From Amyelois transitella (Eukaryota; Arthropoda; Insecta; Lepidoptera; Pyralidae): a DNA stretch of 64,000 bases. Shown piece after piece: positions 2,844-37,327 of the stretch (positions are counted from its first letter, which is position 1; each line of letters opens with the position of its first letter). The stretch is taken from positions 7,626,001 through 7,690,000 of the forward strand of contig NC_083511.1 in NCBI RefSeq assembly GCF_032362555.1. Reading direction: 5' to 3'. The translations under genes were made by a program, and so were the position numbers. The notes below the pieces were generated by a model that had not been told where the DNA came from, made no database searches, and saw nothing but the letters and a program-made list of their open reading frames with translations.

Positions 2844-5800
2844 CTAAATAGACCCATTTGAGAATTCAACGACTGTGCCTTGTTGCCCGGCGTTCACAAT
2901 GCTGTACTCACTCTTCTTGAGCTCGTCTCTTCTTAATTTGGTGGTGCTACCAACTGTCACGATTCGCGTACGAAGTCTACTGCAGCGGCCGTCTGTGATC
3001 TTCTCGTAAGCTGGAATTGGGAAATGTGTTTATTTAGATGACGTATTAGCTCTTAACTAGAAGTTAGAGGCGCTTTATGTACATTTCAAAGTTTTGTGTG
3101 TGCTTTTGTTAAAGTTTGGTCCTATTGATTCAAATGTTTTTTCAACCTACCATTTCTATTTTTTTTTCAGAGAAGTTATAGTCTCTATCTCTACATGGAA
3201 AACGTGTAAGTTCTACAATTAAAAAATCCATGATTTTATTTATTGCGGTTTTGTTTGAATTGTTCTTTACAACCATACAAATGTTTAGTCAAGACGCAAA
3301 CAAAAACGCACCTGAATAGCTTAAATACATATATATATATATATATATATATAGAATACATATCTACCTACATATAGAATTGAGATTCAAATAGTGACAG
3401 GTTGCTAGCCCGTCGCCTAAAAAGGAATCCCAAGTTTGTAAGCCTATTCCTTAGTCGCCTTTTACAACATCCATGGGAATGCGATTTAGTTTCCTATTCT
3501 TTTTTGTATTGGTGCCGGGAACCACAGGACACTACTTAATCAAATTACAAACAAACAAATATTTTTTTTATAACTTAACAATTAAATATGTAAAACTGCG
3601 TTTTCGTCCAATTAATTGCACATGATCCATTAGATAATGTAATAAAGGATGGCCAGTGTATTTGCAATGCCCGCTTGCAAGTACATAGATCCGCTCGCAT
3701 TTTTTAAGTTAGACATAAAACATGTTACGGTCAAATGGATGTGTTAAAAATATTGAACTTAGTAATTCGACGTTCACTGAATGCGTAATTGTAACATTTA
3801 TAATTCAACGAGCGTAGATAACGGCTTGAGTAACTATTAACTGTATATATATGTAAGTAATCGTTTTTTCTCATCTTTGTGTTGAGTAGGTTCACGCATG
3901 GTTTGTAATCAATGATTCGCAATTAAAACATAAGTTTACTAAACTACTCTTCAATCATGTGAAGAAAGAAGGTATGACAGCTGGTAGGTACATAATGTTG
4001 ACTCAATCTAAATCAAATATCTATCGCTATTAAAAAATATAAAAATTACTACTATTTTTTGTCCTTTTTTTAATAGGTTCCGATAGAGATTTCAAATATG
4101 TCCCTCTAGTGTTTCAATTTAAACTACCTGTAAACAGCTCCATTAACTTTAAGTATTATATTGTGATGATCATAATGTTAGCCAAAGAACATAATTTATT
4201 GATTTATTTATTTTAAACTTTATTGCACAAAAAAAAAATGTACAATAGGCGGATCTAATGCCGTTTGGCATTCTCTACCAGTCAACCAGCTGACCAAACA
4301 GACAAACTTTAAGTAGTAAGTGTAACATAATAAAGGCGAACAAAATAATAAATGGTTGAAAGGCGTATCAATTACCTGGAGTCCTGTAGGAGTTGTGACA
4401 AGCCATGTGACAGATCGAAGGGAAACTCTTTAATTCCTTTGGATCAATTATGGTTGAGGACAGTGGAATGCTGCATAGGATATCTTTTCTCCCTCTGCAG
4501 GACTGTATACACGCATCGTATGAGTTTCTCTTTGGCTTCGATGTCCTCTTCGTACGTGGCCTTTGTGTACTTGTAGTTGGGTTTATCTTTACGTTTGTAA
4601 TTGATCCTTTAGGAGCAACAACTCTTATTATAAGCCCTGGTGATTTCGTGGAGATTGGTCTGTTGGATAGTGTATTTGGTGCTAAAGTTGATGTAAGTAT
4701 TGTAGGCGTTACAATAGGAGATGTACGACAAATATTAGCAGGTGATGTAAATGGTGAAGTGGTAGTAGTGCTTATAACAGCAGGGGTGATTGTCGTACTT
4801 GGTAATGTTGAGATTGTAGTAGATGTGACTTGAGGCGTAGACACAGTGGGTACTGGCGGAGGAACTTCAGTTGGCCGGGTATTTTGTGGTGCTTGGTACA
4901 CAACGACAAAATTAGGCGGTGGTGTCGAAGTTGTTGATGGAAATTCACTGGCAAAAGTTGAAAATTGGGTTGAAGCCGGTGGTACAATTCGAACAGTAGG
5001 TGGAGTAAACGTTAAACCACTATCAAAGAAAGTAGGCGTTTGAGTTGTTGATGGAGTGAAATTTACTGAGGAAAGGTCTATTTCACCGAATGTTGGTAAA
5101 GGTGTGCTTGAGAATTCTGGAGCTTTTGAAGTGCTGATCGTTTGGAACAAAGTTGTTCCAGGTTGGTTGGATGAAGGATAAGTGGGTTGTGGCGTAGATG
5201 AGGGTGATAGTACGACGATTGGTTGTGTTACAGAAAAGCTGGGTTGCGTCTGTTTCACGGTTAAAGTAGGTGGAGATTGAGTGACCGTGAATTGAGGCGT
5301 AGATTGTGTTACAGAGTTTTGGGGTGAAGATTGAGTTACAATGACTGGCTGTGTGACGAAGGAAGTCGAAGACTGCGCAGGCGGGCTTTGGCTCGATGAG
5401 AATAGTTCTGAGATTGGCTTCGGGGAGAAGTCGTCGTTAATGGCGTTGGCTGAAAACCATTGTCCTGGCAGAATTTGCGATATTTCTGCGCGGCATAGTT
5501 GTAAAACTGAAATGGGAATAAACATATTGGCTATTAAAAAAAACTACGTACTACTTAAATACTAAAGATTTTTACGATTATCAACGGTCTATGATCAAGA
5601 TGTTTGAAAAACTGTAAATATTCCGGGTGCCGTGAGTCTCATGTATTCGTTTGGAAAATGCTATTAAAATGTAACATACGAGAACAAGTATTGTTAAGCG
5701 TCACATGCAGAATCAATCTTTCCGTCCCCTTTGCCCTTTTCACACAACTAAAATGTAAATAGGTAAACCTATAAAATTGGTCATAAAATAGACATTATGA

Positions 5801-9667: not shown

Positions 9668-9974
9668 TTCCTTTATTCTTTACCTTCTCAGAATAACAAA
9701 AAACATATTTTACTTGTTAAAGTGAACATAGGTTTTCCATTCCCAACCACGTTTAGACATAGAATAATTTAAGTAAATAAAAATGAAAGTATACTTACAC
9801 GTGTTAAGGTAGATAATTTATCCTTTTGGATTTAAGATTTCATGCTAAATCATTACGATTACATAATGATATCAACTTATTAATAAAGTTGGAACATACT
9901 TACCGAATGGTTTTTAAAACATGAAAAAGATGTTGGTGCATATTTACATTATGTTTTAGGAAAAAAAAAATACA

Positions 9975-11702
9975 ATGGTCCCCAATAAAGGTTCAAGCAA
10001 CATTTTGCCAGAAACTCCCGAGGGTCAATTCAAAAAGTTAATAGCTCCACAAGCAGAGCCGAGGAAACACAAGATAGTGTATCGGAACCTGCTCACATTC
10101 GGCTATTGGCACTTATCTGCTGTATACGGCCTCTATCTGTGCTTTACTTCTGCTAAACGGGCTACGATTATATTTGGTACGTAGTTAACCCCATTGTAAT
10201 TTGAAAAGTTACCACAAATGTAGCTAACGTGGAGCCAAATTAATATGCATATTCTCTTTCTATATTTGTGAAACCAGCACATCCAGTAGTCTGAATGTGT
10301 GGGTGCTCCCAAAGCAGAGTAAATGAAAATATTGCATGCCTAAAGAGTTAATACTATTGTAATGTATTTCCATCCGCATGTCTAAGTACACAGTTAAGCA
10401 ATAGATATATTTAAGTTTTAGATTCACTATGGACGTTGGCCCTAAAATGTCTTTTTGAATTATCTTTTTCAGCAATCTTCATATACATCATAGCTAAAAT
10501 CGGTATAACAGGTGGCGCTCATAGACTATGGGCACATCGGGCTTACAAAGCCAAGTTGCCTTTGGAGATTCTGTTACTCATAATGAATTCCATTGCCTTC
10601 CAAGACACTGTTTTAACCTGGGCGCGAGATCACCGCCTTCATCACAAATATTCTGACACTGATGCTGATCCACATAACCCGACTAGAGGGTTCTTCTTTG
10701 CCCACATGGGCTGGGTTCTTGTGAGGAAACACCCTGAGGTCTTAGCAAGGGGGAAAGCCCTGCCGATAGACGATTTGAAGAACAATCCGTTGCTGAGATT
10801 TCAAAAGAAGTAAGTTGTATAAGAATCTTTTATTTGGAGATTTGCTCTCGTAGGAATTTTTAAATTTTTTAGACATTTGATAATAACTTTATGTTCAAAA
10901 TTCTCTTCTTAGATTTCCAAGAATTTGTGGTCTCAGCTGCACATTAGAAGATATCAGTCAAGAAAAATATCAATATTTATTCTGCAACGAATAAAATACA
11001 ACAGTACAGAATGAAGCATTCAATTATGACTTCTATATTGTTTCTTGATTTTATCATACATTAGCTAAATTTTTATTCAGGGCTTTGCTTCTGTTAATTT
11101 AATTTAAGTAAAGGTCTTGTCTATCTCTGCGCCGAAATTGTTGTAAATTGGTATATCTGTTTTATATTGATATACGTTAATTATTTATCTATTTTCACAG
11201 ATACGCCATCCCAATGATTGGCACTTTGTGCTTCCTTATGCCAACATTTGTGCCCGTGTACTTCTGGGGCGAGAGTATCAGCACGGCCTGGAACATCAAT
11301 CTACTGCGTTACGTGACGAACCTGAACGTCATTTTTCTTATCAACAGCTGGGCCCACTTAATCGGGAACAAGCCTTACGATAAAAACATTGCCGCCACTC
11401 AAAGTATACCAATAAGTATTGCTACTTTAGGTGAAGGATTCCACAATTACCATCACACGTACCCCTGGGATTACAAAGCATCGGAGCTAGGGAATAATAA
11501 AATCAATTTGACGACGAAATTCATAGATTTCTTCGCGTGGGTCGGATGGGCGTATGACCTGAAGTCTATGCCCTCAGAAGGCGTTGCGAAGAGACGTGCC
11601 AAGACGGGTGATGGGACGGATTTGTGGGGCCGAAAAGTGAAGATAAACGAGAATATTGTAAGCGATGATAACATTGAAACATATGATAACAATGAATATT
11701 AG
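9975..11702 (+). CDS. acyl-CoA desaturase A (membrane fatty-acid desaturase)
   Basis: Exons 9975-10176, 10473-10809 and 11201-11702 (stop TAG) encode 346 residues; introns are in phases 1 and 2. It should insert a double bond into fatty acyl-CoA using a di-iron centre in the endoplasmic reticulum membrane. All three histidine boxes are present: HRLWAH, HRLHH (in WARDHRLHHKYSDTDADPHN) and HNYHH (in GEGFHNYHHTYPWDY). Hydrophobic stretches include YGLYLCF, AIFIYIIAKIGI and TLCFLMPTFVPVYFW. An acceptor-like TTTTAG just before the ATG suggests a non-coding first exon. It ends in a tail of about 20 residues (NIVSDDNIETYDNNEY) absent from desaturase B. Family members make Δ9, Δ11 or other products, including sex-pheromone precursors; regiospecificity cannot be read here. 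Confidence 0.93.
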
Positions 11703-14520: not shown

Positions 14521-15324
14521 TATGTGAGGTACAAATTATTATCTACGGAACCTTCTCAATGAGTTGGAACTCGCAACTTATTGCTTTGCAAAAGATCGCG
14601 CTAGGGCAAATAAGCTTCAATGTAGCACAATTTACTATATATATTCTCAAGTACATTTCTTAGGTATTTCTTGCGTTAGTATCTGAAGGAGTTAGTACTC
14701 CACGGTTTTAAGAGTACTCGTGTATTGTAGCGTGTTTAGTAAATTAGAAGTGCTTTGTTGAGTGGATTTATGTTTCAGTACATTATTCGGTATGTAGTTT
14801 ACGATTTTTTTAATGTAACTCACAGTGTTTACGGTCAAGAAATGTAATCTTTTTCAATTTCATCTTCTTTTAATGGTAAAAGATACTAAGTACTTTAACG
14901 AAGATACATAATGCTGATAATATATATGCTTTTTTAAAGAAAACATTTGGTCGCTTCCATCTTTTTATTTAATTAAAAGGTTATACTTATTCGTTCTAAA
15001 ATAAAGTAGTTTCCATTCATCTTTGATAAACCCAACAATCAAGGGGCTACAAAAACAAACCAAAAAAATTAATATTACCATGAAACAATTAGGTGAATTA
15101 ACTACTTTGTCGAACCACGACTGTTCAGGAAGGTAAAAATTGTTATTAAGTCAAGAAATCCTGATGTTTCTGGCTGAACGTTGATTGGTGGTAATTTTTT
15201 TTCTCAACTATGCCTTTTTTAAGTTGACCGCACACTTGGCCCCGTCGCATGAACCAAAGTTGTCGAAATACTTTATATGAAGATGTATAAACAATCTTAT
15301 AAATTTTCAGATCGAGTATCAACC

Positions 15325-17509
15325 ATGGTCCCTAACAAGGGTTCCAGTGACGTTTTGTCTGAACATTCTGAGCCCCAGTTCACTAAACTCATAGCTCCAC
15401 AAGCAGGGCCGAGGAAATACAAGATAGTGTATCGAAATTTGCTCACATTCGGCTATTGGCACTTATCAGCTGTTTATGGGCTCTACTTGTGCTTTACTTG
15501 TGCGAAATGGGCTACCATCTTATTTGGTGAGGACAGTTAACTTTTACCATGCGAACGTTTTAACACAATGCTACTAAATTTATTGTAAAAAATTAAATTT
15601 CTGTTTCTTAGTAGCTTTGATTCTATGGCTTGTTAGAATGTAAATGGAGTAGAAGATGAGATATAAGAAATTGCCACTTTAAAGACATTGAATAGATTTT
15701 GTTTGAAATAGGTTTAAGATTGCCAAGTTAAAATGTTGTCATCATCATAAAAGATTTGTAGTGACAAAACATTGTCGTAAAATACAAAATTGTCAACACT
15801 GTATGAACTTATCTTGACTCTGAAGTTATTAAGATGCATCCAATTATTATGTTTGTGATGTAATAGCTTCTCAGAAAAACTAGCCAGGGTTCAGAATATT
15901 AACTGTAGTAATAAATTTTCCTAGGTACATTTTGAGATAATCGCTCGAAAAAAAGAATAGCGGCGATGGAAATTATGTCATTGACTTCTGTTGGTCTTAT
16001 TCTACATTGCCGTAAACAACACGACCGTTGATACACGTTGATAACCCTACTACCTAAATACCCCCAAAATCATCATCATGTTTTTGTTTTATCCTTAACT
16101 ATGTTGCTTCAGAGCCCGACGTGCTTCAGCCATGGTCTAAAAATTGTTTCTGACGTACGCCCTTAAGTTGGACTTATACCTAACTAATGCTCTTGTAGAG
16201 TGGAAACTTCCTCATTTATTAAAATTTGATTTATGATATAACCTTGCCGTCAGAAACTTGACTTAATCCAGGAATAAAAACGATTAAAGGTGGACCTCGA
16301 GTTCCTCCTCAGAATAACGACGTAATCGGCATTGACCTCAGGAGCATATGGTGACTAGTCTTTGCAAGATTGGTTGATTTTGTACCCTCTTGTATTTAAA
16401 TACATTACATAGCCCTTTATTTTTTCCTTTTGGTCTGTTTCAGCATTTTTCTTATACGTGATCGCGGAAATCGGTATAACAGGTGGCGCTCATAGGCTAT
16501 GGGCACATCGGACTTATAAAGCCAAGTTGCCTTTAGAGATTTTGTTACTCATAATGAATTCTATTGCCTTCCAAGACACTGCTTTCACCTGGGCTCGAGA
16601 TCACCGTCTTCATCACAAATATTCGGATACTGACGCTGATCCCCACAATGCTACACGAGGGTTTTTCTATTCACATGTAGGCTGGCTTTTGGTGAAGAAA
16701 CACCCTGAAGTCAAAGCAAGAGGAAAATTCTTGTCGTTAGATGATCTTAAGAATAATCAATTGCTTAAATTCCAAAAGAAGTAAGTTGGCGTTAGACTCT
16801 AATAATATCTTGTATAATATTTTATTGGCGTTATCGTCTTCAATGCATGAAGTGGACTGTTTCTCCAAAGGATTTCCACATTGATCGTTAGTAAGCAGAG
16901 TATATCCAAGGTCATATCGTAACAGTAATAAGGTCGTTCGAACCTAGTGTCTGAATTCTAATAAAAAAAAACCTTTGAACAATTTTTCCCGTATATATTA
17001 TATAAATATTAAAAATTACTTCACTGCCTAGGGAAAATTTAATGGGATTTATTCTTTCTTTCCACAGATACGCTATTCTAGTTATAGGCACGTTATGCTT
17101 CCTTATGCCAACATTTGTGCCCGTATACTTCTGGGCCGAGAGCATCAGCACGGCCTGGAACATCAATCTATTGCGATACGTCATGAATCTTAACATGACT
17201 TTCTTAGTTAACAGTGCAGCGCATATGTTTGGCAACAAACCATACGATAAGAGCATAGCTTCAGTCCAGAATATTTCAGTTAGCTTAGCTACTTTTGGCG
17301 AAGGATTCCATAATTACCATCACACTTACCCCTGGGATTATCGTGCGGCAGAATTAGGAAATAATAGGCTAAATATGACTACTGCTTTCATAGATTTCTT
17401 CGCTTGGATCGGCTGGGCTTATGACTTGAAGTCTGTGCCACAAGAGGCCATTGCAAAAAGGTGTGCGAAAACCGGCGATGGAACGGATATGTGGGGTCGA
17501 AAACGATAA
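15325..17509 (+). CDS. acyl-CoA desaturase B (tandem paralogue)
   Basis: Exons 15325-15526, 16444-16780 and 17068-17509 (stop TAA) encode 326 residues. Coding exons 1 and 2 have the same lengths (202 and 337 nt) and phases as in desaturase A. Histidine boxes HRLWAH, HRLHH and HNYHH are intact. I start at MVPNKGSS rather than the longer open frame from 15277, because an acceptor (AAATTTTCAG, ending 15310) lies just upstream and the same start is used in A; the acceptor implies a non-coding 5' exon. Differences from A cluster near the N-terminus (SSDVLSEHSEPQF), at ARGKFLSLDDLKNNQLLKF and at MTFLVNSAAHMFGNK. The protein ends at DMWGRKR, without A's extension. It is a recent, probably functional duplicate. 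Confidence 0.93.
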
Positions 17510-17844
17510 TTCAACCCGGAACGACCAAAACATCCCTTAATTACTCTTATGAATGAATGCCTGAATTTTCGACACATATTTTATAATGTATTATGTAAAA
17601 GATGGCAAAATACATGTTTCTTTTAATTTTGTATAAGAAAATATTTTTTTTGTAATTAAACTTTTTAAATAATTATCTCATGATAGGTTTTATTTTTATA
17701 TTATGGATTAAAAACTTTATTCAATATTCTGTCAGTTCATTTGCCCTTCATTGTGTTGAATCAACGAGCAATTAACAAGAATAGAAATAAATCGTGATCT
17801 TCGTACTATGATCCTGATATTATTTTAAGGACAAATCATTACAG

Positions 17845-20800
17845 ATTCTCAAAGGTGTTTGGGCATAAAACATATATATTTTTAATATGCACAACACTGC
17901 TTTTACCTTCCGTTTACGGAAGTCAACTACCATACGTAAAGGTAATTATTTTTGTGCAATTGGTTTCAAATTGGGAATGTCCTGGCGAAAGGTCAGCTCA
18001 AAAATATCCTAAACCGATCAGCTTGTATGAAGAGAGTTGTGTAATGTGAATACAGGGATCGTGCCTAGTGGACTGATGTTGTCTCTACCTACCCCTCTGG
18101 ACAAGAGGAGTGATTTTGACCGATGACTATCTATATCTATATAAAACCATCGATCGAAGACAAAAATGTTAGTTTTAGAATTTTTTATCTGTAGGTATGT
18201 TTGTACTCGCATCACGCAAAATCTACTGCTCCGATTTGAATGCAGTTTTGTCAGATGTATTAGGCTTGGTCCAACTATTAAACTGGTTAACAAAAATTTC
18301 TACCCCCACTTCTCTAAGGGGTAATGCAGGGGCAGCTTTTTTCTATCAAGATTATCGCTGAACTTTTACGGCGAGTGAAGTAGCGGGCAACACGTATTAC
18401 TAATTAAATATTATCTTGCAGAAAATTGCTAAGTTAACAGATACAAACTGCCGGAGATGTAAATGTAATCTTCAAACCAAATTGCAGGAACCTGTAAGTT
18501 ATTTTTATATTTCCCAAGATATAAGATAATTATATTAAAACCTTATCAATATACATACAAGGTGACATTTAAAACAACTGCATCTTTTTAAACATAGACT
18601 ATACCCATGCTTCTGAGCTGTTTGAGCCTATTTTTATTTAACTTAAATGTCATCATCTTCACATTTAAAAAACCTTCAAAAACTACGTCACACGCTTTAT
18701 TAAAGACCAATACTACAAAAAGAAATTAAAACTAAACATGTAAATAAATGTCTGAAAAATAAATTATTTTTCTAGTATCAAGGTCAAGTAAAGTACAGAG
18801 TTGTCGAGATCGCTCAGCTGAATGAATTGTGTCATTGACCTCTGAATCTTACGCGCCGCTTTTCGCCGGCCGGGGTGAGACGTATTTAGGATCGTGGATT
18901 TTGATACTTTTATTTTTTTTTCGTACTTTCTGAAATATGAACCGATATTTTTCTTTTAACGTTTTTAAATATTCTTTAGATAAGTAGGCTTAACAGTTAA
19001 ATTTATGCAGTTGAATTAAAAGTCACCCTGTATAGAACTACTTCTTAACTGAGTGATAGACAATGCAGAGGTATGTAGGTTCCTTATATGTGTATGAGTG
19101 CGCTAAGAGAAATTTTCTCGAAATTCTGGCGAGAATTAACGGGATTTTTCGATATAAGCGGAGTCTGGCGGGCCAGGGGTACGCACTCTATCGTACTTAA
19201 TTTATAAGTGAGTAAGTAACTCTGTCTATCTGTTATGCTTTCACGTCTAAATCACTGAAACGACTTCGATGAAATTTGGTACTAATTAATTTAATAGCTA
19301 ATTCTTGACCATGAGGAAGAGCACAGAATAAATTTTTTATTGCAAAAAAAGGAGAAGACCACGCGGAAGAAATCGCGGGAAAATGCTTGTATCTTAAACA
19401 CTCGATAAATTTCGGTATCATTGTAATAAGCTAACGTTAAAATTGTTGAGTAGTCATTTATCATCATAATCATAAACTTTGTGATTTATTTATTTTTATA
19501 CTTTATTATCAATAAAAATGATGTACGATCATAAAATTAAAATGTATTTTATTGAGACCCGCGGCAAGATATCACTTATGTGTGTAAAATTTATATATTT
19601 ACACGTTATTTTACACTTTATAAATTGTGCTAATCAAAATCATGCTTTATTACAGGAAGGTCCTTTAAATTCTTCCGTAGTATATGCTTTAGATAATTAT
19701 GAAAAGAGTAAACAATTGAAATCCTACGAGGTGAGTTTTCATCATAATAATATCGTTTTAGTAGGAAGATTCCGACTTAAGACAGATTTCTAACACCATG
19801 GTTCCTGGATTAGGTTAGTCAGATTTTTACACGAAGCGGCTTCCGACGACCTCCGCAACCTTTGTAGGGAACCTAATCATATTGGATCACATTCATTCAT
19901 CATTCATACAGTTACATATTCAGTTGCATGAATGTGTAGGTTTCCTCACGATGTTTTCCCTCACTGTAAGAGTATCTTGAGAAAAAAGACTTGTCAAGTT
20001 CTCTTCTTATAAGTGTGGTAACCAACTCTCTGAATTCTATAATAGACTGGGCTTTGTTTAGCCCGTATAACGGAAAAAGACGTGATGGATGACGTGTATC
20101 TTACACCAATTTGTTTTTCAGTTTTTTATGCATTAATTATTTTTAATAATAAATATAATTTAAGTTCTTTACTCGCCTACTATGGATGCCTCGATGTAGA
20201 ACAAATTTACTTAATCCATAAGAGGTAGTAATGAAATGGTCGTATTCAACTTCAAAAGTTCTATTTTCTAGTAGAATTATTATTTATTATTATTTTAGCC
20301 TAAATATTCAACTACTACCGAAGACTTCATAGATAGATATAAAAGGCTGAAGCAGATGAAATATTACAATGTAAGTACGACAGAAATACAGCCAACTACA
20401 TACACAAGAGGTAATCGCTACATTGAAAAAACAATAAATGAGTATCTAGTTATATGTTTTTACTGTTAGCTTTTTTCAAAACCCGCGACTTCAATAAAGC
20501 AACTGAATTAGAGTAACTTAATATGTTATTCCATTGTATAAGCTATATAACTGAAAAGTTTTACGTAATCCGTTCCAAAGTATTGTGAAAGTGTAACAAA
20601 CAAATCCTTAAAAACTTTTGCATTTATAATGTTAGTAGAGTTTTCTGTTGTTAGGTAAGTACACAATGATATATACGCCATATTTTATCAAAATTACATA
20701 CATACATATTGGCACGTCTATATCCCTTGTGGGGTAGACAGAGCCAACAGTCTTGAAATGACTGATCTGCCACGTTCAGCTACTTGGCTTAATGATAGAA

Positions 20801-23800
20801 TTGTGTATAAGTTATTGTTAACAAAATTATGTATACGAAATTCCTGGGCGTCTTCTATATTAGTCTTTCATACATACATACATACATATAATCACGTCTA
20901 TATCCCTTGCGGGGTAGACAGAGCCAACAGTCTTGTAAAGACTAATAGGCCACGTTCAGCTGTTTGGCTTTAAGATAGAATTGAGATTCAAATATAGTGA
21001 CAGGTTGCTAGCCCATCGCCTAAAAGAAGAATCCCAAGTTTAAAAGCCTAGACCTTAGTCGCCTTTTACGACATATTAGTCTTTATTCTATTAAAATTGT
21101 CTGTCCTGATGTTTCAGTCTAGTTTATATAGTGGCTCAGTTGGACTCGCTGAAAGTCAAGCGGCAAAACCTGAAGGACTTAGGCAATATGTAAGTGATTT
21201 CTGTTATTATCAGCGCAATCACCAACATAACAGCGGAATAATTCAACATTCGTTCCTCATATTAATTATATTTATGTATGTCTATAAATATTATATATAT
21301 ACAAACATATTATAGTGAAGTCTATACCACTTGCGAGGCAGACAGAGCCAACAGTCTTGAAAAGAGTGAAAGGCCACGTTCAGCTAAAAGGCTTTATGAT
21401 GGAATTGAGATTTAAATAGTTAAAGGTTGCTAGACCATCGCCAACTAGAGGAATGTGAATTTTATGAACCTGAGTCACGACAATCATGAAAAATATATGG
21501 AATGGTTCCATTCTAAAGTGCCTGAAACTACAAGTTATATTACATTTGTTTACTTTCTATTAAATTGACATGATGTATCATAAAGTTGGCATTTTACTTG
21601 TAGGTATGCCTAGGTGATATATGAAACTTAATTCCTAAACCATAAGCTTGACGTGGCCTTATAGTTTTTTGGCTCTGTCTAATACTAATAATATAATAAA
21701 CAAGTATCAATTTAGATATATATGTATTAAGATTTATATATATGTCGAAATATTTCGATTTCCTCTATTTTTTGTTACTTTGGTAATAATTTTAATTGTT
21801 TTTCCTAATCTTTCAGTCTAGTTTTTATAGTGATTCAATTGGAATTGCTAGAAGTCAAGAAGCAAAATTGGGAGATCTAAGGCACCATGTAAGCGAGTTT
21901 TCTTTAATTATATCCATACTAATATTATACATATGAAAGTATGTTTGTCCGTAGCACTTAATAAACGTCAAACGATCTATTTTTATAATTACTTAGTTTA
22001 TATTTGATTTATTATTATAAATTATTATACTAAACTTATATTATCATTATATTATTCAATTCCACTTAATTCAAATTACTTTATAGAAAAAGACAATTAG
22101 TTTATTAGATTAGTAGGTACTAACAATATTTTCTATAAGTTTACTTATTCGAATTTGTTGTTAAAGGTTTCACTAAGATGTGTAAAATTTTTATAAATAC
22201 ATAAATAGTTATAGAAAAACATTTAATACTTTATGCAATTTCGTATCAACAGGTATTTTTGCTTAAAATGTACAGTGCAAAGAAAATGGAGTATAGAGCG
22301 TTCTGCGCGGGGAGCATCATCACTAGACAAAGAGTATTGTCATCAGCACATTGCTTTTACTCGAACAGAAAACGGTAATTGTTTTTACCATGCTTTTATT
22401 TAGATTCACTTACCTACATAGTAGTTCTATGTAAAGGTACCTGTGAATTCCCCTGTCACAATTTTTGTTAAATCTTCCCATACATAGGTACATATAATCA
22501 CGTCCATATCCCTTGCAGGGTAGACAAAGCCAATAGTCTTGAAAAGACTGAAAGACCACTTTCAGCTGTTTGAGTTTTAAAGGACAGGTTGCTAGCCTAT
22601 CCCTTAGTCGCCTTTTACGACATCCATGAGAAAGAGATGGGGTGGTCCTTTTCTTTTTTTTATTGGTGCCAAACGGCACCAAATCTTCCTAAGTGAAATT
22701 TAACACCTTCCGGCTATCAATTGATTTGAAATTTTGAAAGCATGTGTAAATCGGATCAATATGCAATTGTACTGATCTGATAGTAATTGCGCCAATGCAT
22801 CCGAATACACTATAATAAATAAATAAATAGATTATTTCATATTGTATTCAAATCCATACTTCACAATAATATTGACATTTCAGTTTGAGACACCAGCTGA
22901 ATGAGGTCCAAATAGTTGCCGGATTGCTGCTTACCGTACAGCGCTATCCGTCAAACGTTACAGACACAGAACAACAGTGGAGGATACCGACCCGTGTGTT
23001 TACACAGAAATTCTATCGTTTTCCTGCTTTCAGCCTTGCTGTTATTGTATGTTCTTGTTTTTATATTTTCATAAGTTTTTGCCCACGTAAAAAGTACTCT
23101 ATACTAGAAATGAACATATGCAAAAATTGTTAGAGATCGTTTTAGTGGTTTATCAGTTCATGGTAGTTGTATTTGAAAATACATTGCCCAAAATTTTTTG
23201 GACGATAGTATAAAATTTATACCCAAAAAGAGGTAACGAAACTCATTTTAAAAATGATTAAATTTTTTACATATTTTCAGGAAATTAATTTACCGTGGAA
23301 ATTCAATCATATCGTTAACAAAATACCTTACGCTAAATCAACATTAGATTACGACGGAGTGTGTAATGTTGCAGTGGTAAAGATAACTAAGGTAAAAGTA
23401 CTGTGAACATTGAATGACATATAAATGCCAAACCGGGCCACTTATTATCACAAAAACTAAATCGTCTTAATGTTTTTTGGCATAACTGTTTTAGCATACA
23501 ATATATTGGCATAATATGGTCTAAGGGCTAATGGTTGATTTTGACATGCGGGTAAATGTGGATAAATTATTTTTTTGGCTAGTTTGGGTTAGTTATGCTT
23601 TAAATAATTATGCGAAAAACACTTTGCCTAAATATCATTATGCCGTTATACGGTATGCTACAGGTTTGATTTTTAATGCTTGTAGATTGTGACCTCGAGG
23701 GTTTACGTTAGTCTTAAAAAGTAAACATGATTCTCTTCATTCAAAGTCATTGCCAAGAGTATTATCGCACCATAATTTTATTTTGATGTTATAATATGCC

Positions 23801-24851
23801 TGATACATAATAATTTTATAGTATTTCCTTCTTAATGCTTGCATACAGAGCTGGGCGTACAAAAAATATCTTTTCACGGAACAGCACAGAATCGTACCGC
23901 GGGAGAAATGCGAGCGAAAGCTGCTTAGAACATGTCGACTCTATATATGCACAATGGCCGAAATAGCTCAAGCTGAATCAGTAAGTTTTACTTTTCAATA
24001 ATAAACTTCTGAAGTAATGGACATAGGTACTCGTGGATCACCTGTAGGGTTCATTGTGGCTTTTGTAATGTGTTACCACCATTCCTCTCTCAATTCGTAA
24101 GGCGGACTCACATTAGTATCGTGGCTAAAGGCGCGGGCATCTCTCCAGAGGAGTAAGACGCAATCGGGTACCTCTGATACCTCTCTAAATGTACCAAAAT
24201 CAAGCTTGTAAATAATGTTTTCTGATGAAGTTCTGCTCTTGCATTGCATGCTATGTGTTAGCAGAGATATCAAAAATCATCAGCTCATTATCTTCTTTAT
24301 CATGGCGTTAATCCCGGTTACATCTTTACCTCTCCCGGCCGAGAGACCAGGGTGCGCCTTTGGATCAGGATCCTGGATAGGGTTAGTCAGTTTTTTAAAT
24401 GTAACGGCTCCCGTCTGGCCGCCACCTTCATAGGGAATCCTAAGCCATATTGAATCATGATAAAAGCTAAACTTCATGAAATTGCCTATTTCCTTAGCTT
24501 CTCTTTACGGCATGCACGGGAAAGATGCACAACTGGTCCGCAGTCACACCATATCAGGTAGTTATCTGATCCACATGACAAGCTTTGCAGTTTATGAGCT
24601 GTTTCATGATGACCATTCCCAATTTCTCACAGGAAACAGCAGGCGCTGGTCTGGTGTGCTTCGAGACTGGTACCGCTGAAGAGGATCCACAAGGCGGTCT
24701 TCTGGTCGGGGTCACGGTTCTCATCAACATCGGCCTACCATCCTTGCACCACAGGATTGCAATGTTCGACAAATGGGTGGCTGACGGCGCGTACCGAGTC
24801 TTCAATCTACCTTTTATTTTGCTGTTTACTTGTCTGTGTATGGTTTTATGA
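17845..24851 (+). CDS. catalytically dead S1 serine protease homologue with repeated linker exons
   Basis: Phase-0 exons form the linker: A 17845-17941, B 18422-18493, C 19656-19730, D 20299-20370, E 21118-21189, F 21817-21888. Domain exons follow: G 22253-22374, H 22884-23046, I 23281-23391, J 23849-23980, K 24633-24851 (stop TGA). His57 remains (VLSSAHCF). The Asp102 segment reads FSLAVI where a paralogue has SDIAII. The Ser195 segment reads TAGAGLVC in place of DSGGPLVC. No IVGG motif exists. The chain ends in a hydrophobic tail (FILLFTCLCMVL). Two N-termini are possible: exon A has a signal-like core (YIFLICTTLLLPSVYG) but no in-frame ATG, so an upstream exon is needed; or the frame runs from ATG 19578 (MCVKFIYLHVILHF) straight into exon C. 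A binding or regulatory role at the cell surface is inference. Confidence 0.78.
18018..18118 (+). repeat. LINE 3' stub
   Basis: Contains TGTATGAAGAGAGTTGTGTA and CCTACCCCTCTGGACAAGAG followed by GAGTGATTTTGA, matching the end of the LINE at 30819-33395. It is a 5'-truncated relic between protease-homologue exons A and B. Confidence 0.65.
19205..19330 (-). repeat. diverged dispersed repeat tail
   Basis: GTCTATCTGTTATGCTTTCA and GATGAAATTTGGTACTAATT resemble the 3' region of non-LTR repeats that I recall in many lepidopteran introns. A similar phrase occurs near 27455-27500. No coding capacity is seen. Confidence 0.35.
19795..20090 (+). repeat. second SINE-like repeat family, copy 1
   Basis: Contains ATGGTTCCTGGATTAGGTTA, GGCTTCCGACGACCTCCGCA, ACCTAATCATATTGGATCAC and GTTTCCTCACGATGTTTTCC. 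Parts recur at 24290-24475 and 27960-28150, and the TTTCC-ACGATGTTT phrase also near 57815. It lies in the intron between exons C and D of the protease homologue. Confidence 0.6.
20695..20800 (-). repeat. SINE, 3' part
   Basis: ACATACATACATATTGGCAC, then CCCTTGTGGGGTAGACAGAG and CCACGTTCAGCTACTTGGC. A second copy in the same orientation begins only about 70 bp further on. Confidence 0.8.
20870..21074 (-). repeat. SINE, most of element
   Basis: CATACATACATACATATAAT to CGCCTTTTACGACAT; the head is missing. It ends about 40 bp before exon E of the protease homologue, so it sits close to that exon's branch-point region. Confidence 0.85.
21118..21888 (+). repeat. duplicated 72-nt coding exons E and F
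   Basis: Exons 21118-21189 and 21817-21888 each encode 24 residues and both are phase 0-0. They are clearly related: SSLYSGSVGLAESQAAK against SSFYSDSIGIARSQEAK, then LRQY against LRHH (13 of 24 residues identical). Exon D (20299-20370) and exon B (18422-18493) have the same length and phase but little sequence identity. Confidence 0.85.
21305..21530 (-). repeat. SINE, diverged
   Basis: TATACCACTTGCGAGGCAGA, AGCCAACAGTCTTGAAAAGA and GGCCACGTTCAGCTAAAAGG trace the element. The head side is degraded (ATGGAATGGTTCCATTC). It lies between exons E and F. Confidence 0.75.
22483..22685 (-). repeat. SINE with internal deletion
   Basis: TACATATAATCACGTCCATA, GTAGACAAAGCCAATAGTCT, GACAGGTTGCTAGCC and CCTTTTACGACATCCATGAG, with head TATTGGTGCC. 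A central segment before CCCTTAGTCG is shortened. It lies in the intron between exons G and H. Confidence 0.8.
24290..24475 (+). repeat. second SINE-like repeat family, copy 2
   Basis: ATCCCGGTTACATCTTTACC, GGTGCGCCTTTGGATCAGGA, GGCTCCCGTCTGGCCGCCAC and CCTAAGCCATATTGAATCAT align with copies at 27960-28150 and 19795-20090. It lies in the last intron of the protease homologue. Confidence 0.65.
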
Positions 24852-25224
24852 TTTGGGTACATAAATGTTTAGTTTTATTTCTTGTTTGTCGTTATAAAAA
24901 ACTTGGAAATAAAAATATTTTTGTTTAGACCCATAAGAAGTGGCAACGTTATACATTTTTAGCTAAAAAATAAGAAAATTCTTCAAAATGTTAGAAGCTG
25001 ATGTCCTTGTCATCGAAAATTCTCATAGTAAATCGAAAACTAGTAAAAATGGGCTAGGAATCTATCATTGTCTGAATCTAAATTCTATCATAGAAGCCAT
25101 CTCTACTTAGACTATCGCTTCTGACTAATCTTAAAGGGATACGTGACTTATGTTTACACTTCGAATTATCCAGGCATTATACACAAAGGTTGTTCACAAG
25201 TTGATATATAGAAATTAAACCAGA

Positions 25225-28200
25225 TCAACATAGATAAAACGCCGCGTATATTGTCAATATTACAGCAGACTTAACAGTATTAGATATCCTTGTTGCTTGG
25301 CTGTGTGCTTTTATGAACTTTGTAAACGAAGAAACTCTTGTGAAAAATGAGCCAACACCGACGCGGTGACCACTTACAATTCCAACTAAAACTCCTTTTT
25401 CTTTTTCATTGGGATCGCCAGTAGATTTGCAAACTATAGGCCCGCCTGAATCTCCCTAGAATAATGAATTATTAGACATGGGACTTCAAAATAATCATCC
25501 CTCTCTCTCTTTCTTTCATCTGTGCGTTCCCACTTGAACTCTCCGTCACTTTGTTTTGGAGTCTGTTAATCCACTTACGAACATACTGTCTTTCCACGTT
25601 GTCCGGTCTGTATCGTCTTCAGTTTTAAGATCATTGGTACGCATATCATTTTTTGCGTAGTCAAGCCAGGATTTGTTCCGCCTGGCCCTTGTACCAGGTC
25701 CCGACGGAGGTGGCATGACTAGACATTTATTCTCAGATAGTTTTAAGGCAGAACAATGTAGCCTTACCAGCGTAGCCGGCTGTCCTAAATTTTGTCTCAT
25801 ATTGACATTACGTATAAAGAATAGGGGGTGAGTGATACAGAACTACTTAAAGGGACAATAAAGAGCTTTTGTAAGAAGTCAAGAAAGGATACTCTGTTAA
25901 AGAGGGCTCGCGAGGTCTTCCAGGCAACCTTAACAATACCGCGTGAGAGAGTTTTAATGCAGGGGTTGTTTCTAAAAAATTAAGCTACTAATACACCACT
26001 ATTACTTATGAATATGAAGCTACACGGTCGGTTTTCGTACAGATTGATAAACTTGCGGTATCAAATAGGATTGCGAGGTGGGATAAGGAAAAAGGGAACA
26101 AAATCTACATATGTGCGCTAAGGATTATACCAAGTATTTCAATGATTTATACTAACTTTTGCAGTATCAGGCATTCTCGATGAAGTACAAACGAAGCGAT
26201 ACATATTTTTGCCGTGCATTCTGTTGCAGTAAATCGTCGGTATCATATGCATATTTGCCACATATAAATATGGAGATAATTGCTGAGAAAAGCAAATAAG
26301 GTATTTTTAAATAAAGTATTTAAGAAACTTCATTATAAGCCAAAAATAACTTTAGACGTCTAAATTAAAATACTGACTGACATAATATCAAATCGCTGAT
26401 TCTATACAAATTTGTCTTGTTAGATACCTTGTGTTCTAGGGTTGTATCCTGAGAGAATATTCTAAAAAGTTTGTAAGATTAACTTTTATAGGAAGTAGGG
26501 TTCATTTCCATCACGAGTATCTTTGGATTACTCACTGGGAAGTCCAAGCATCTAGTTGTAATCAAAATTAACTAGTATGAAGTAATAGAGGCCGCGGCTC
26601 CACCAGCGTTTGTTTGTTTGTAATATCTTTATTGCATATAAATTTACACAGTAACAGCGTATTACGAAAAACTCTGTTAAATCCCGTTCGAGGGGGAATT
26701 TAGGAAAATCGTCCCTCGCTGCACCCCTAGACCACTTAAGGATCCTAAACCAAATTTCAAGTCAACCAAGCGGTTTGGGATGTGCATTGTCTATCAGTCA
26801 TTCAATACCTAACGGAAGAGTAATACATGATACATACATATAATCACGTTTATATCCCTTGCGAGGTAGACAGAGCCAACATACTTAAAAGAATGATAGG
26901 CCACGTTCAGCTGTTTGGCTTAATGGTAGAATTGAGATTCAAATACTGACAGGTTGCTAGCCTGTCGCCTTAAAGAAGAATCTCAAGTTTATAAGCCTAT
27001 CCCTGAGTCACCTTTTACGACATCCATGGGAAAGAGATGGAGTGGTCCTATTCTTTTTTCTATTGGTGCCGGGAACCACACGGCACATGATCATGATATA
27101 GATAGGTATACATATCTGGCATATTAGGTACTGAATAGCTATATTACCTGGTCGCGATCTGAATGTGACAGTCTACCGTAGCCAGAAGCCTGGCAGGCCA
27201 TATTATATTCTACATGGCGGATCGCTGTAGGTATCGGTTGAACGTAGCTGTTTATTGTGAACGGTTTTCTTATCGTCTTGAAAAAAAAGAAGAATATTTC
27301 GAGCTTGCATGATGAATAATGAATGTGGATTAAGCGAAAGAAGTTAGCTGGGATCGTGGCAAGTGAAAACATGTACGAGTTGTCTCTGTTTGCAGATCCG
27401 GGAAAACCTATGTAAGTTGGCATCCATATTAATATTCTAAATAATAAAGTGCGTTTGTTTATCCGTCTTTCACGTCAAAACTACGGAAAATACATAGTGT
27501 TGAGTACAGAGAAGGGCATAAGGTACACTTACGCGAGGAGAAGATAGAAAGTCAAATGGCGTCTTACTATGATAGCTATGTCCGATCTAGGGAACCTGTA
27601 GCTAGCTGGGTATACTCCTCTTGAGAGCCTCTTCCACTGGCTTGATGGGTTTTGCTGTCGACGATCCTCTGCGTTCAAGAGGGTACCAGCCACGGCGTAT
27701 GTATTTTTTATGAGGTGCGAGCTGACGGCTCTGAAAAGTACACAATTTTTTTAATTATTGTCTTATAAAGTCAATCAAGAGAAAGGCAGATAAACTTGGG
27801 ACTCTTCTTTAAGGCGATTAACTAGCAACCTTTCAATTATTATGAGTAAGTTCCGTTATTAAACCATACAGCTGCGCGTGGTCATATCCTTTTCAAAAGA
27901 CTGTTGGCTCTGTTTATTCCGTAAGGGATGGTAATATGTATGTATATATGTTCTTATTTTGCCTCCTGGCGTTTATGCCGATTACATCCTCACCTCTCTG
28001 GAGAAAATCTCGGGGTGCGCGTTATGACCATGATCCTGGAATGGGTAAGTTAGGTTATCACACGGAGTGATACGGAGCGATTCCCGTCTGACCATTGCAA
28101 TTTTGAAGGCGAATCTAACCCATGTTGGGTCATGGTAAATGTATATATACCTAAAGACGCTACTACTACCTAAGACGATATAAGGCGTAGGCACAAGAAT

Positions 28201-29120
28201 TTAGTACAGATGAATTATGGCTTATCTCTTAGTGGTTTTAAACAACATTCAAGTCTTAAAAGAGACAAACAACAAAAGTACAAACAAATACCCTTAGGCC
28301 GTGATGTGGTGATCTTACCCCTCAGTATACCTATAATAAATGCGATAGTATCTGTTGCTCAGGCAAAATATATTAGGTGGATTGGTATGACACCTTACAG
28401 TAATATTCTGCAGTGAAGTATCGTGTAATAGTCTTAATATAAAAGTTAACTTCTTCGTACTTTTCTCTCTGCCAAAATTTACATTTGCTGAGGTCACACA
28501 ATTGCCTACTTTCAAAGCAATGGGCTGCAGTGAGGATTTTTGTTGGTGTTATTATGCTCCCTCCGCAAAAAGTTCTGTACTGAGAAGAGCGCTTATTTCG
28601 ACTTTGTTTGAAGGCCACCTGAAAACACCACACATTAAATTTAAGTTAGTACGGAAACCATAATTTTAAAGAACAAGTAGTTTATTCCTTTAAACTACTT
28701 GTTCTATAAAATTATGATTTTCGTTCGTTTGGTAAATTTATAATCTTGGAATTCTTCTTGTAGGCGATAGGCTAGCAACCTGTCACTATCAGAATTTCAG
28801 TTTAATAATTGGGACTTTGCCGCTGAATAGAAAATATAAAAAAAATCGTGACATGAGTTTTTCGAGACTATTAGCACTTTTTACACCGTGAGGGATAGAG
28901 ACGTGATATATGTAAGTGTGTATCTGACCTTTCATAATATAGATTAAATCAAGACTTAATAACTAACCTGAAATGGAACATCGCCAAGCGCCGCCCGAGT
29001 TCCTCCTATAATACGTGGTATCAAAATCGACCTATTTACAGGTGCATATCTAAATATCCGTTGAGACAAACAAGGTTTACAAATAATGCATACGAAAATA
29101 TAATAAATTCCCAGAAACAT
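25225..29120 (-). CDS. S1 serine protease lacking the 191-220 disulfide
   Basis: Six minus-strand exons: 29120-28968 (ATG), 28618-28500, 27730-27568, 27276-27148, 26282-26157 and 25455-25225 (stop TGA), 306 residues. Intron phases 0,2,0,0,0 match the neighbouring paralogues. There is a signal peptide (MFLGIYYIFVCIICKPCLS), a short propeptide and an activation site PRIIGG. The triad is complete: LTAAHCF, SDIAII and GDSGGPIVC. PDTAK before GDSGG puts Asp at position 189, predicting cleavage after Lys/Arg. Position 191 is Ala instead of Cys, and no Cys follows in IVSGHRVGVGSFFTRV, so the usual 191-220 bridge is absent. The C-terminus is hydrophobic (SAVILTIYAAFYLC), suggesting GPI or membrane anchoring. 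The donor of exon 2 (GTGTGA) is weak and chosen by phase and alignment. Confidence 0.85.
26595..26815 (-). repeat. dispersed repeat with CCCTCGCTGCACCCCTAGAC core
   Basis: AATATCTTTATTGCATATAA, CCCTCGCTGCACCCCTAGAC and CACTTAAGGATCCTAAACC look like the 3' end of a non-LTR element. The class is not established. It lies upstream (on the + axis) of a full SINE. Confidence 0.4.
26828..27087 (-). repeat. full-length SINE copy
   Basis: CATACATATAATCACGTTTA, CTTGCGAGGTAGACAGAGCC, GACAGGTTGCTAGCCTGTCG, CCATGGGAAAGAGATGGAGT and head GTGCCGGGAACCACACGGCA. It lies in an intron of the minus-strand protease, in sense with that gene. Confidence 0.85.
27301..27415 (+). repeat. LINE 3' stub abutting a splice acceptor
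   Basis: GAGCTTGCATGATGAATAAT, GGATTAAGCGAAAGAAGTTA and GATCGTGGCAAGTGAAAACA match the LINE end (GAGCTTGTATGAAGAGAG and so on). The relic starts 25 bp from the acceptor of protease exon 27276-27148, antisense to the gene. Confidence 0.7.
27775..27950 (+). repeat. SINE, 3' two-thirds
   Basis: ATAAACTTGGGACTCTTCTT, GCGATTAACTAGCAACCTTT and AAGACTGTTGGCTCTGTTTA, with a tail ATGTATGTATATATG. Diverged. Confidence 0.7.
27960..28150 (+). repeat. second SINE-like repeat family, copy 3
   Basis: GCCTCCTGGCGTTTATGCCG, CGGGGTGCGCGTTATGACCA, CGATTCCCGTCTGACCATTG and CCATGTTGGGTCATGGTAAA match copy 2 at 24290-24475. Confidence 0.65.
28659..28716. repeat. 26-bp inverted repeat with 6-nt loop
   Basis: Arms 28659-28684 and 28691-28716 pair with a single mismatch around TTCCTT; the inner stem is AACAAGTAGTTTA against TAAACTACTTGTT. 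It lies in intron 1 of the minus-strand protease, about 40 bp upstream of the exon 2 acceptor. Confidence 0.9.
28735..28925 (+). repeat. SINE, diverged 3' part
   Basis: TAGGCGATAGGCTAGCAACC, TGTCACTATCAGAATTTCAG and GAGGGATAGAGACGTGATAT. It is antisense to the host protease gene. Confidence 0.65.

Positions 29121-30230: not shown

Positions 30231-37327
<7,097 letters not shown>

Follow-up and report, generated by a model that had tools for sequence, protein, structure and literature searches.

The window (the whole 64,000-nt stretch of Amyelois transitella DNA that was analysed) carries a probable S1 protease-like gene, read as exons A to K, on the plus strand and two neighbouring paralogues, one on each strand (Table 1). 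Pfam searching of the joined A-K reading matched Trypsin (PF00089) at residues 164-338 with 39.2 bits against a cut-off of 20.6 (E=8.7e-10). No other Pfam family, clip domains included, matched with an E of 1 or below, placing the gene outside the clip-domain serine protease homologues (SPHs). The best solved relative of the F-K reading was the chymotrypsin 1eq9, with an E of only 0.0019. When the domain was aligned with both paralogues the catalytic His was present (SSAHC), but the catalytic Asp was replaced by Ser (PAFSLAVI) and the catalytic Ser by Ala (ETAGAG), which is not the triad of an active S1 protease. The substitutions in the domain are D102S, D194T and S195A in S1 residue numbering. 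Asp194 is the partner in the activation salt bridge of S1 proteases. With an S1 domain, at least one catalytic residue replaced and an intact frame, the gene has the sequence features of an SPH, and its classification as a catalytically dead S1 homologue is supported.

Intron phases are common to all three paralogues. As the G-K frame is intact and the Cys changes are paired, plain gene decay is unlikely. Read by eye, the C-terminus encoded by exon K resembles a membrane or GPI-anchor signal and all three paralogues have hydrophobic ends; the pseudoprotease may be anchored in the membrane. The preliminary description took both neighbours to be active. The plus-strand paralogue has its triad and motifs intact; the minus-strand paralogue keeps the triad, but the region before its GDSGGP gave no clean S1 exon. 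Each neighbour does have, as described, one activation exon with a phase-0 end directly before the exon that begins VAFKQ or VALRE.

Table 1. Exons and related features at the locus, in positions of the window
Feature	Position	Strand	Description	Remark
Exon A	17845..17941	+	Phase 2 to 0, signal-like FSKVFGHKTYIFLICTTLLLPSVYGSQLPYVK, no in-frame start codon	Gene membership uncertain
Exon B	18422..18493	+	72 nt, phase 0-0, KIAKLTDTNCRRCKCNLQTKLQEP	Unlike C-F and the activation segments
In-frame extension of exon C	19578..19655	+	ATG and 25 codons, MCVKFIYLHVILHFINCANQNHALLQ	Candidate alternative first exon with signal peptide
Exon C	19656..19730	+	75 nt, phase 0-0, EGPLNSSVVYALDNYEKSKQLKSYE	Homologue of D
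Exon D	20299..20370	+	72 nt, phase 0-0, PKYSTTTEDFIDRYKRLKQMKYYN	Homologue of C
Duplicated unit around E	21090..21205	+	116 nt, 75% identical to its partner 21789-21904 around F	Repeat family D2
Exon E	21118..21189	+	72 nt, phase 0-0, SSLYSGSVGLAESQAAKPEGLRQY	Tandem copy of F
Exon F	21817..21888	+	72 nt, phase 0-0, SSFYSDSIGIARSQEAKLGDLRHH	Best candidate for activation-segment exon
Exon G	22253..22374	+	S1 domain start, VFLLK...SSAHCFYSNRK	Catalytic His retained
Exon H	22884..23046	+	...YRFPAFSLAVI	Catalytic Asp to Ser
Exon I	23281..23391	+	S1 domain	
Exon J	23849..23980	+	S1 domain	
Exon K	24633..24851	+	ETAGAGLVC for GDSGGPLVC, hydrophobic C-terminus, stop	Ser to Ala, Asp194 to Thr
Minus-strand paralogue exon 1	28968..29120	-	ATG, signal-like start and activation segment RIIGGTRAALGDVPFQ	All in one exon
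Plus-strand paralogue activation exon	30574..30690	+	117 nt, phase 0-0	

Small exons upstream of the S1 domain

The five small exons B to F had been proposed from the letters of the sequence, and their positions, lengths (72, 75, 72, 72 and 72 nt), AG...GT borders, 0-0 phases and open frames were all confirmed. Their splice signals scored well with splice matrices, lowest for exon E, and the exons join phase-consistently through G-K in one frame up to the stop codon. Because all five lengths are divisible by three and all borders are phase 0-0, adding or skipping any one of them leaves the frame undisturbed. When open exons of 30-300 nt with both borders in phase 0 were sought, with the weakest B-F splice scores as cut-offs, exactly B-F were returned on the plus strand of 17500-24900; across the whole window the same cut-offs returned 12 such exons on the plus strand (B-F among them) and 2 on the minus strand. 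Using approximate splice matrices and tight cut-offs chosen post hoc with B-F already known, dinucleotide shuffles of 17942-22252 (n=100) gave a mean of 0.15 exons, a maximum of 1 and no 72-nt exons, against five in the real sequence. Looser cut-offs gave 7 real exons against a shuffle mean of 0.86 and a maximum of 4 (same region, n=100). Subject to the post hoc cut-offs, these counts rule out a chance origin of the whole array. Codon usage of B-F was like that of open noncoding sequence (p 0.51) and not coding-like, in a weak test in which pieces from five known gene sets averaged just 0.62-0.71 percentile; we regard it as uninformative or mildly against coding.

The codon usage is one of several observations that fit an alternative in which the upstream exons are partly or wholly unused. 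The gene would then start at C with its extension, or be decaying with B, E or others as relics, and the five serial exons would be an artefact of open AG...GT stretches. Exon E, with its low splice scores, sits among dispersed repeats. Exon A, described previously as a possible signal exon, is signal-like but lacks the start codon that would make it complete, and those start exons found upstream of it in a matching phase all had poor donors (0.1 or lower). Upstream of exon C its reading frame runs on without a stop for 57 codons; an ATG in this part precedes a hydrophobic segment, and from the ATG the exon would count 51 codons, as exon 1 of the minus-strand paralogue does. Exon C could, from these features, open a first exon rather than be internal, and the shared length makes homology of C with the minus-strand exon 1 an attractive rival reading; however, the similarity of the extension to that exon did not reach significance (ungapped p 0.065, gapped p 0.163). 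The codon usage of the extension was also poor (0.057 percentile), and its hydrophobicity was equalled or exceeded at 77 of 6814 AG sites (1.1%), so that the chance of such a case among five exons is about 5%. These results, together with the excess of five open exons over the shuffles and the intact G-K frame with its paired Cys changes, argue against unused exons, and we consider this alternative unlikely.

Exons C and G have similar upstream flanks over 38 nt (79%), at 90 nt before C and 89 nt before G; this likeness was one out of 288 comparisons with 200 shuffles each.

Kinship of the small exons and the activation segment

E and F clearly belong to a tandem duplication, whose unit of 116-118 nt takes in short intron flanks and is about 75% identical between the copies. 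Two methods put the dN/dS between them at 0.61 and 0.26, over 72 nt only, which does not make purifying selection firm. C and D are also related, with a p of at most 1e-4 and none of 987 background peptides scoring as well. No other likeness was detectable among the five exons. The comparison of C/D with E/F gave p 0.2-0.7 individually and 0.25 jointly, with no trace of shared flanks at the DNA level, and exon B resembled neither the other exons (p 0.58) nor the activation segments (p 0.74). C/D were marginally like the activation segments (joint p 0.037). The earlier term "serially repeated" is not confirmed for the five exons. Multiplication of an activation-segment exon could apply at best to E/F, and the derivation of C/D and B from such an exon is unsupported, as is a common origin of all five. 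The full proposal, a single activation exon ancestral to all five with every copy retained serially as a modular spacer, draws on the common phase, the near-equal lengths, the proven E/F copies and the marginal C/D likeness; given the absence of detectable kinship between the pairs or with B, it appears improbable.

Exon F resembled the activation segment of the minus-strand paralogue most closely over the last 16 residues (p 0.00095, equalled by 3 of 987 background peptides) and less closely over the full length (p 0.018, 21 of 987). F also lies 15 residues from the conserved phase-0 intron, as the activation segment does. For exon E the likeness was no longer detectable (p 0.36) and the ALGD pattern was gone. 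Resemblance of F but not E to the activation segment fits E as the displaced copy, and of the five exons F is the likeliest to be the activation-segment exon.

The previously proposed alignment of IARSQEAKLGDLRHH in F with IIGGTRAALGDVPFQ in the minus-strand paralogue is possible, but a gapped alternative (GIAR/SQEAKLGD) keeps the Arg of F at the cleavage position. The claim that the cleavage site was lost is therefore uncertain for F. The active-type Ile-Val/Ile-Gly-Gly N-terminus is absent in both alignments, and its partner Asp194 is missing as well. No [ILV][AILV]GG motif was found upstream of exon G on the plus strand of the gene, F having IARS or AR/SQ instead. The elements of zymogen activation at Arg15-Ile16 (a basic residue followed by IVGG or IIGG, and Asp194) are thus not present together, position 194 being Thr. 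With both the N-terminus and its partner gone, the switch itself does look dismantled.

Exon use and the fate of the activation switch

The reading we tentatively favour, at somewhat less than an even chance, is that of a real, probably membrane-tethered S1 pseudoprotease in which both ends of the switch were dismantled, F took the place of the activation segment, E arose as its later copy and B, C and D lengthened the leader. The switch would have lost the Ile-Ile/Val-Gly-Gly N-terminus from F, and Asp194 from the domain along with the catalytic Asp and Ser. F would occupy the place that the activation segment has in both neighbours and would pack on the domain without cleavage. E would have arisen from F by a later tandem duplication and diverged more than F from the ancestral segment; with B, C and D it would extend the N-terminal leader, each exon being frame-neutral and open to addition or skipping. 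This reading presumes that the gene is expressed with these exons included jointly, and any binding or scaffold role is likewise presumptive. A more specific version, in which the activation exon was copied and kept serially after the switch was lost and the number of modules sets the reach of the membrane-tethered dead protease, seems rather improbable.

The exons could instead be used either-or, each transcript choosing between C and D and between E and F (or including at least one member of the latter pair), with F an interchangeable segment meeting the S1 domain and not the end of a chain. C/D and E/F are both homologous adjacent exons of the same phase, and E and F are tandem copies of equal length, phase and place, which is how mutually exclusive exons are usually arranged (PMC9013439). 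Either E or F could splice to G in frame, the homology is arranged as two neighbouring pairs, and E is flanked by complementary repeat arms (20937-20961 with 21645-21669). However, exclusion is not forced, as 72 nt preserves the frame, and the introns of 364-1162 nt are well beyond any steric limit. Whole-intron duplex energies gave no special pairing, with only A-B with D-E beating all 20 shuffles (14 of 15 intron pairs, 20 shuffles each), and E has lost the ALGD pattern. Either-or use is a possibility to be taken seriously, though on balance a doubtful one.

Clip-less pseudoproteases are common in moths: Table 1 of PMC10036332 counts 34 in Ostrinia furnacalis and 81 in Bombyx mori, and PMC4676143 gives Plutella 101 SPHs and 120 SPs, with a clip domain in only three SPHs. 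The gene is like these clip-less insect SPHs in having an S1 domain with replaced catalytic residues. Altered activation sites occur there too, as in Ostrinia, where PMC10036332 reports another P1 residue in 21 of 177 genes and none in 5. The gene differs from them in the row of five small phase 0-0 exons ahead of its domain, in the duplicated activation-type exon and in the additional loss of Asp194. Clip-domain SPHs share the dead S1 domain and an N-terminal extension, whereas here the leader is built of unrelated short exons and has no Pfam clip match. No such exon array in S1 homologues was described among the listed titles and abstract starts of openly licensed papers, and pattern matches in genome_contigs (8) and viral_contigs (3) yielded 0 confirmed relatives, both collections holding the wrong kind of organism.

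Tandem exon duplications occur in about 10% of animal genes according to a 2002 study quoted in PMC9013439. Dscam, Mhc and 14-3-3zeta, named in that paper, likewise have neighbouring homologous exons that match in length and phase; in the present gene the duplicated unit is the activation segment of a dead protease, and exclusive choice is only a candidate. A precedent for a duplicated exon retained serially is found in vertebrate COE factors, where the duplicated exon is mandatorily included according to PMC2394523, although the unit there is a transcription factor helix and here it is a secreted protease leader. The duplicated exons in PMC3154331 are those of an engineered mouse allele, and this paper was set aside as a precedent.

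A gene with five tiny frame-neutral exons before a dead S1 domain is plausible as a twist on a common family. If transcripts omit the small exons, the case would be an ordinary one. If E/F, and perhaps C/D, are used serially, the locus would be a concrete case of an activation switch turned into structural material after the loss of catalysis, with an E/F duplication young enough to be read from the DNA. If the exons are used either-or, a dead protease would have gained variable N-terminal segments. Either of these two outcomes would be relevant to the way in which the numerous clip-less moth pseudoproteases acquire new uses.

The S1 domain and its paralogues

The joined exon reading of the plus-strand gene, in which small leader exons (B-F) precede an S1 (trypsin-family) domain (G-K), matched Pfam Trypsin at 39.2 bits (cut-off 20.6). 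Comparison with the two S1 paralogues of the window, one on each strand, demonstrated that the catalytic His was retained, Asp was replaced by Ser and Ser by Ala, bearing out the description of the gene as a pseudoprotease. Thr was found at Asp194 (residue numbers as we assume them), the position just before the active Ser. This loss is significant because Asp194 binds the freed N-terminus upon activation. The Cys pair 191-220 was absent from both the pseudoprotease and the minus paralogue, suggesting that these two are sisters. All three paralogues shared a phase-0 intron right before VAF/VAL/VFL and a C-terminal hydrophobic stretch, by eye a possible GPI signal. No relative was found in prokaryotic and viral sequence collections.

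Both paralogues had been considered active. The plus paralogue does have the look of an active enzyme of the trypsin type, with beta-tryptase as best solved relative (E 4.2e-34), but the minus paralogue, with its triad present, is uncertain because the stretch before GDSGGP gave no clean S1 exon reading. Within that stretch (25579-25842, minus strand) the expected Cys was absent, the reading was insertion-like and Pfam gave no match; it presumably resembles the end of retroelement frames and the minus paralogue may be damaged. Two plus-paralogue exons were flanked by two oppositely oriented element copies (table).

The small-exon array and the 5' end

Exons B-F were all found in the sequence at the positions, lengths and phases first described. 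Phases agreed across A-K, with G-K running on to a stop at 24851.

Features in and around the pseudoprotease gene (A-F, open AG...GT units; B-F, phase 0-0)
Feature	Position	Strand	Description
Exon A	17845-17941	+	
Exon B	18422-18493	+	72 nt
Exon C	19656-19730	+	75 nt
Exon D	20299-20370	+	72 nt
Exon E	21118-21189	+	72 nt
Exon F	21817-21888	+	72 nt
38-nt stretches, 79% identical	19566-19603; 22164-22201	+	upstream of exon C (by 90 nt) and of exon G (by 89 nt)
Dispersed repeat	20681-20818; 20861-20998; 21285-21422	+	three copies around E
Inverted repeat fragment	21645-21669		between E and F
Two tandem genes	9960-11702; 15253-17509	+	histidine-rich motifs, presumably acyl-CoA desaturase type
391-codon frame	4368-5543	-	Ser/Thr/Pro-rich with Cys-rich end; Pfam negative (E up to 0.01)
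Non-LTR-type element	30793-33375	+	860-codon open frame, reverse transcriptase (RVT_1, E 2.7e-41); plus-paralogue intron between activation exon (30690) and next exon (34082)
Shorter element copy	34850-35542	-	near-identical to end of 860-codon frame; plus-paralogue intron following exon 34558-34723

Splice sites were scored with approximate matrices, using tight cut-offs set at the weakest B-F scores and chosen after B-F were known. Between 17500 and 24900 no open phase 0-0 exon of 30-300 nt other than B-F passed, and the whole window had 12 on the plus strand (B-F counted) and 2 on the minus. At a middle cut-off (acceptor 4/donor 6) all four 72-nt exons of the window lay in the pseudoprotease gene. 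Shuffling 17942-22252 (n=100) resulted, at the tight cut-offs, in a mean of 0.15 open phase 0-0 exons (maximum 1), and a looser cut-off gave 7 observed versus 0.86 shuffled (maximum 4). Codon usage did not help, counting weakly against coding status: B-F ranked at percentiles 0.41, 0.41, 0.59, 0.69 and 0.48 among open noncoding 72-mers, with a mean score no better than chance (p 0.51; model trained on the window). This test is weak because held-out pieces of known genes averaged only 0.62-0.71.

Exon A, the proposed signal exon, was signal-like but lacked a start codon, and start exons of matching phase further upstream had donors scoring no more than 0.1. The exon C frame was open upstream for 57 codons, with an ATG at 19578 followed by a hydrophobic run, features matched at 77 of the window's 6814 AG sites. 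Extended exon C has 51 codons, the length of minus exon 1; likeness between them was not significant (p 0.065 and 0.163), and the extension's codon usage was poor (0.057 percentile).

Relationships among the small exons

E and F were copies: the duplicated units, 116-118 nt long and 75% identical, extend into the introns by 23 nt upstream and 21-23 nt downstream. Their dN/dS was 0.61 by NG86 (0.29/0.47) and 0.26 by LWL85 (0.27/1.06), over just 72 nt. The last 16 residues of F resembled the minus activation segment (p 0.00095; 3/987 open background peptides equally good), the full 24 more weakly (p 0.018; 21/987), and E did not (p 0.36). C and D were alike (p 5e-5 and 1e-4; 0/987), showing no likeness to E/F (joint p 0.25) and a marginal one to the activation segments (joint p 0.037). 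Exon B resembled neither C-F nor the activation segments. By these comparisons B-F are therefore two pairs and a singleton rather than, as the preliminary description had it, one activation exon multiplied, which would hold at best for E/F. Near-equal lengths hint at an older common origin.

A 2002 study quoted in PMC9013439 is cited for tandem exon duplications in about 10% of animal genes, and clip-less pseudoproteases are described as common in moths (PMC4676143, PMC10036332). Among titles and abstract openings of openly licensed papers, no S1 gene was found in which activation exons had multiplied.

The activation switch and the leader

In the full-row alignment IIGG was matched by IARS of F. 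With the minus row trimmed, GIAR of F fell opposite IPR with three residues deleted after, so F may retain Arg at the cleavage position. Neither alignment placed Ile-Ile/Val-Gly-Gly after this position and, because Asp194 is also lost, the classical S1 activation switch is predicted to be unworkable; the proposed loss of the cleavage site is not certain for F.

The dispersed repeat copies around E and the inverted fragment between E and F place complementary arms on either side of exon E. The main rival to serial inclusion is either-or use of E and F in transcripts, and intron pairing, computed for 14 of 15 intron pairs, decided neither for nor against it. In the most likely reading, F would sit at the activation-segment position and pack without being cleaved, and the leader would be extended by E together with the remaining symmetric exons, whose number could vary without loss of frame.
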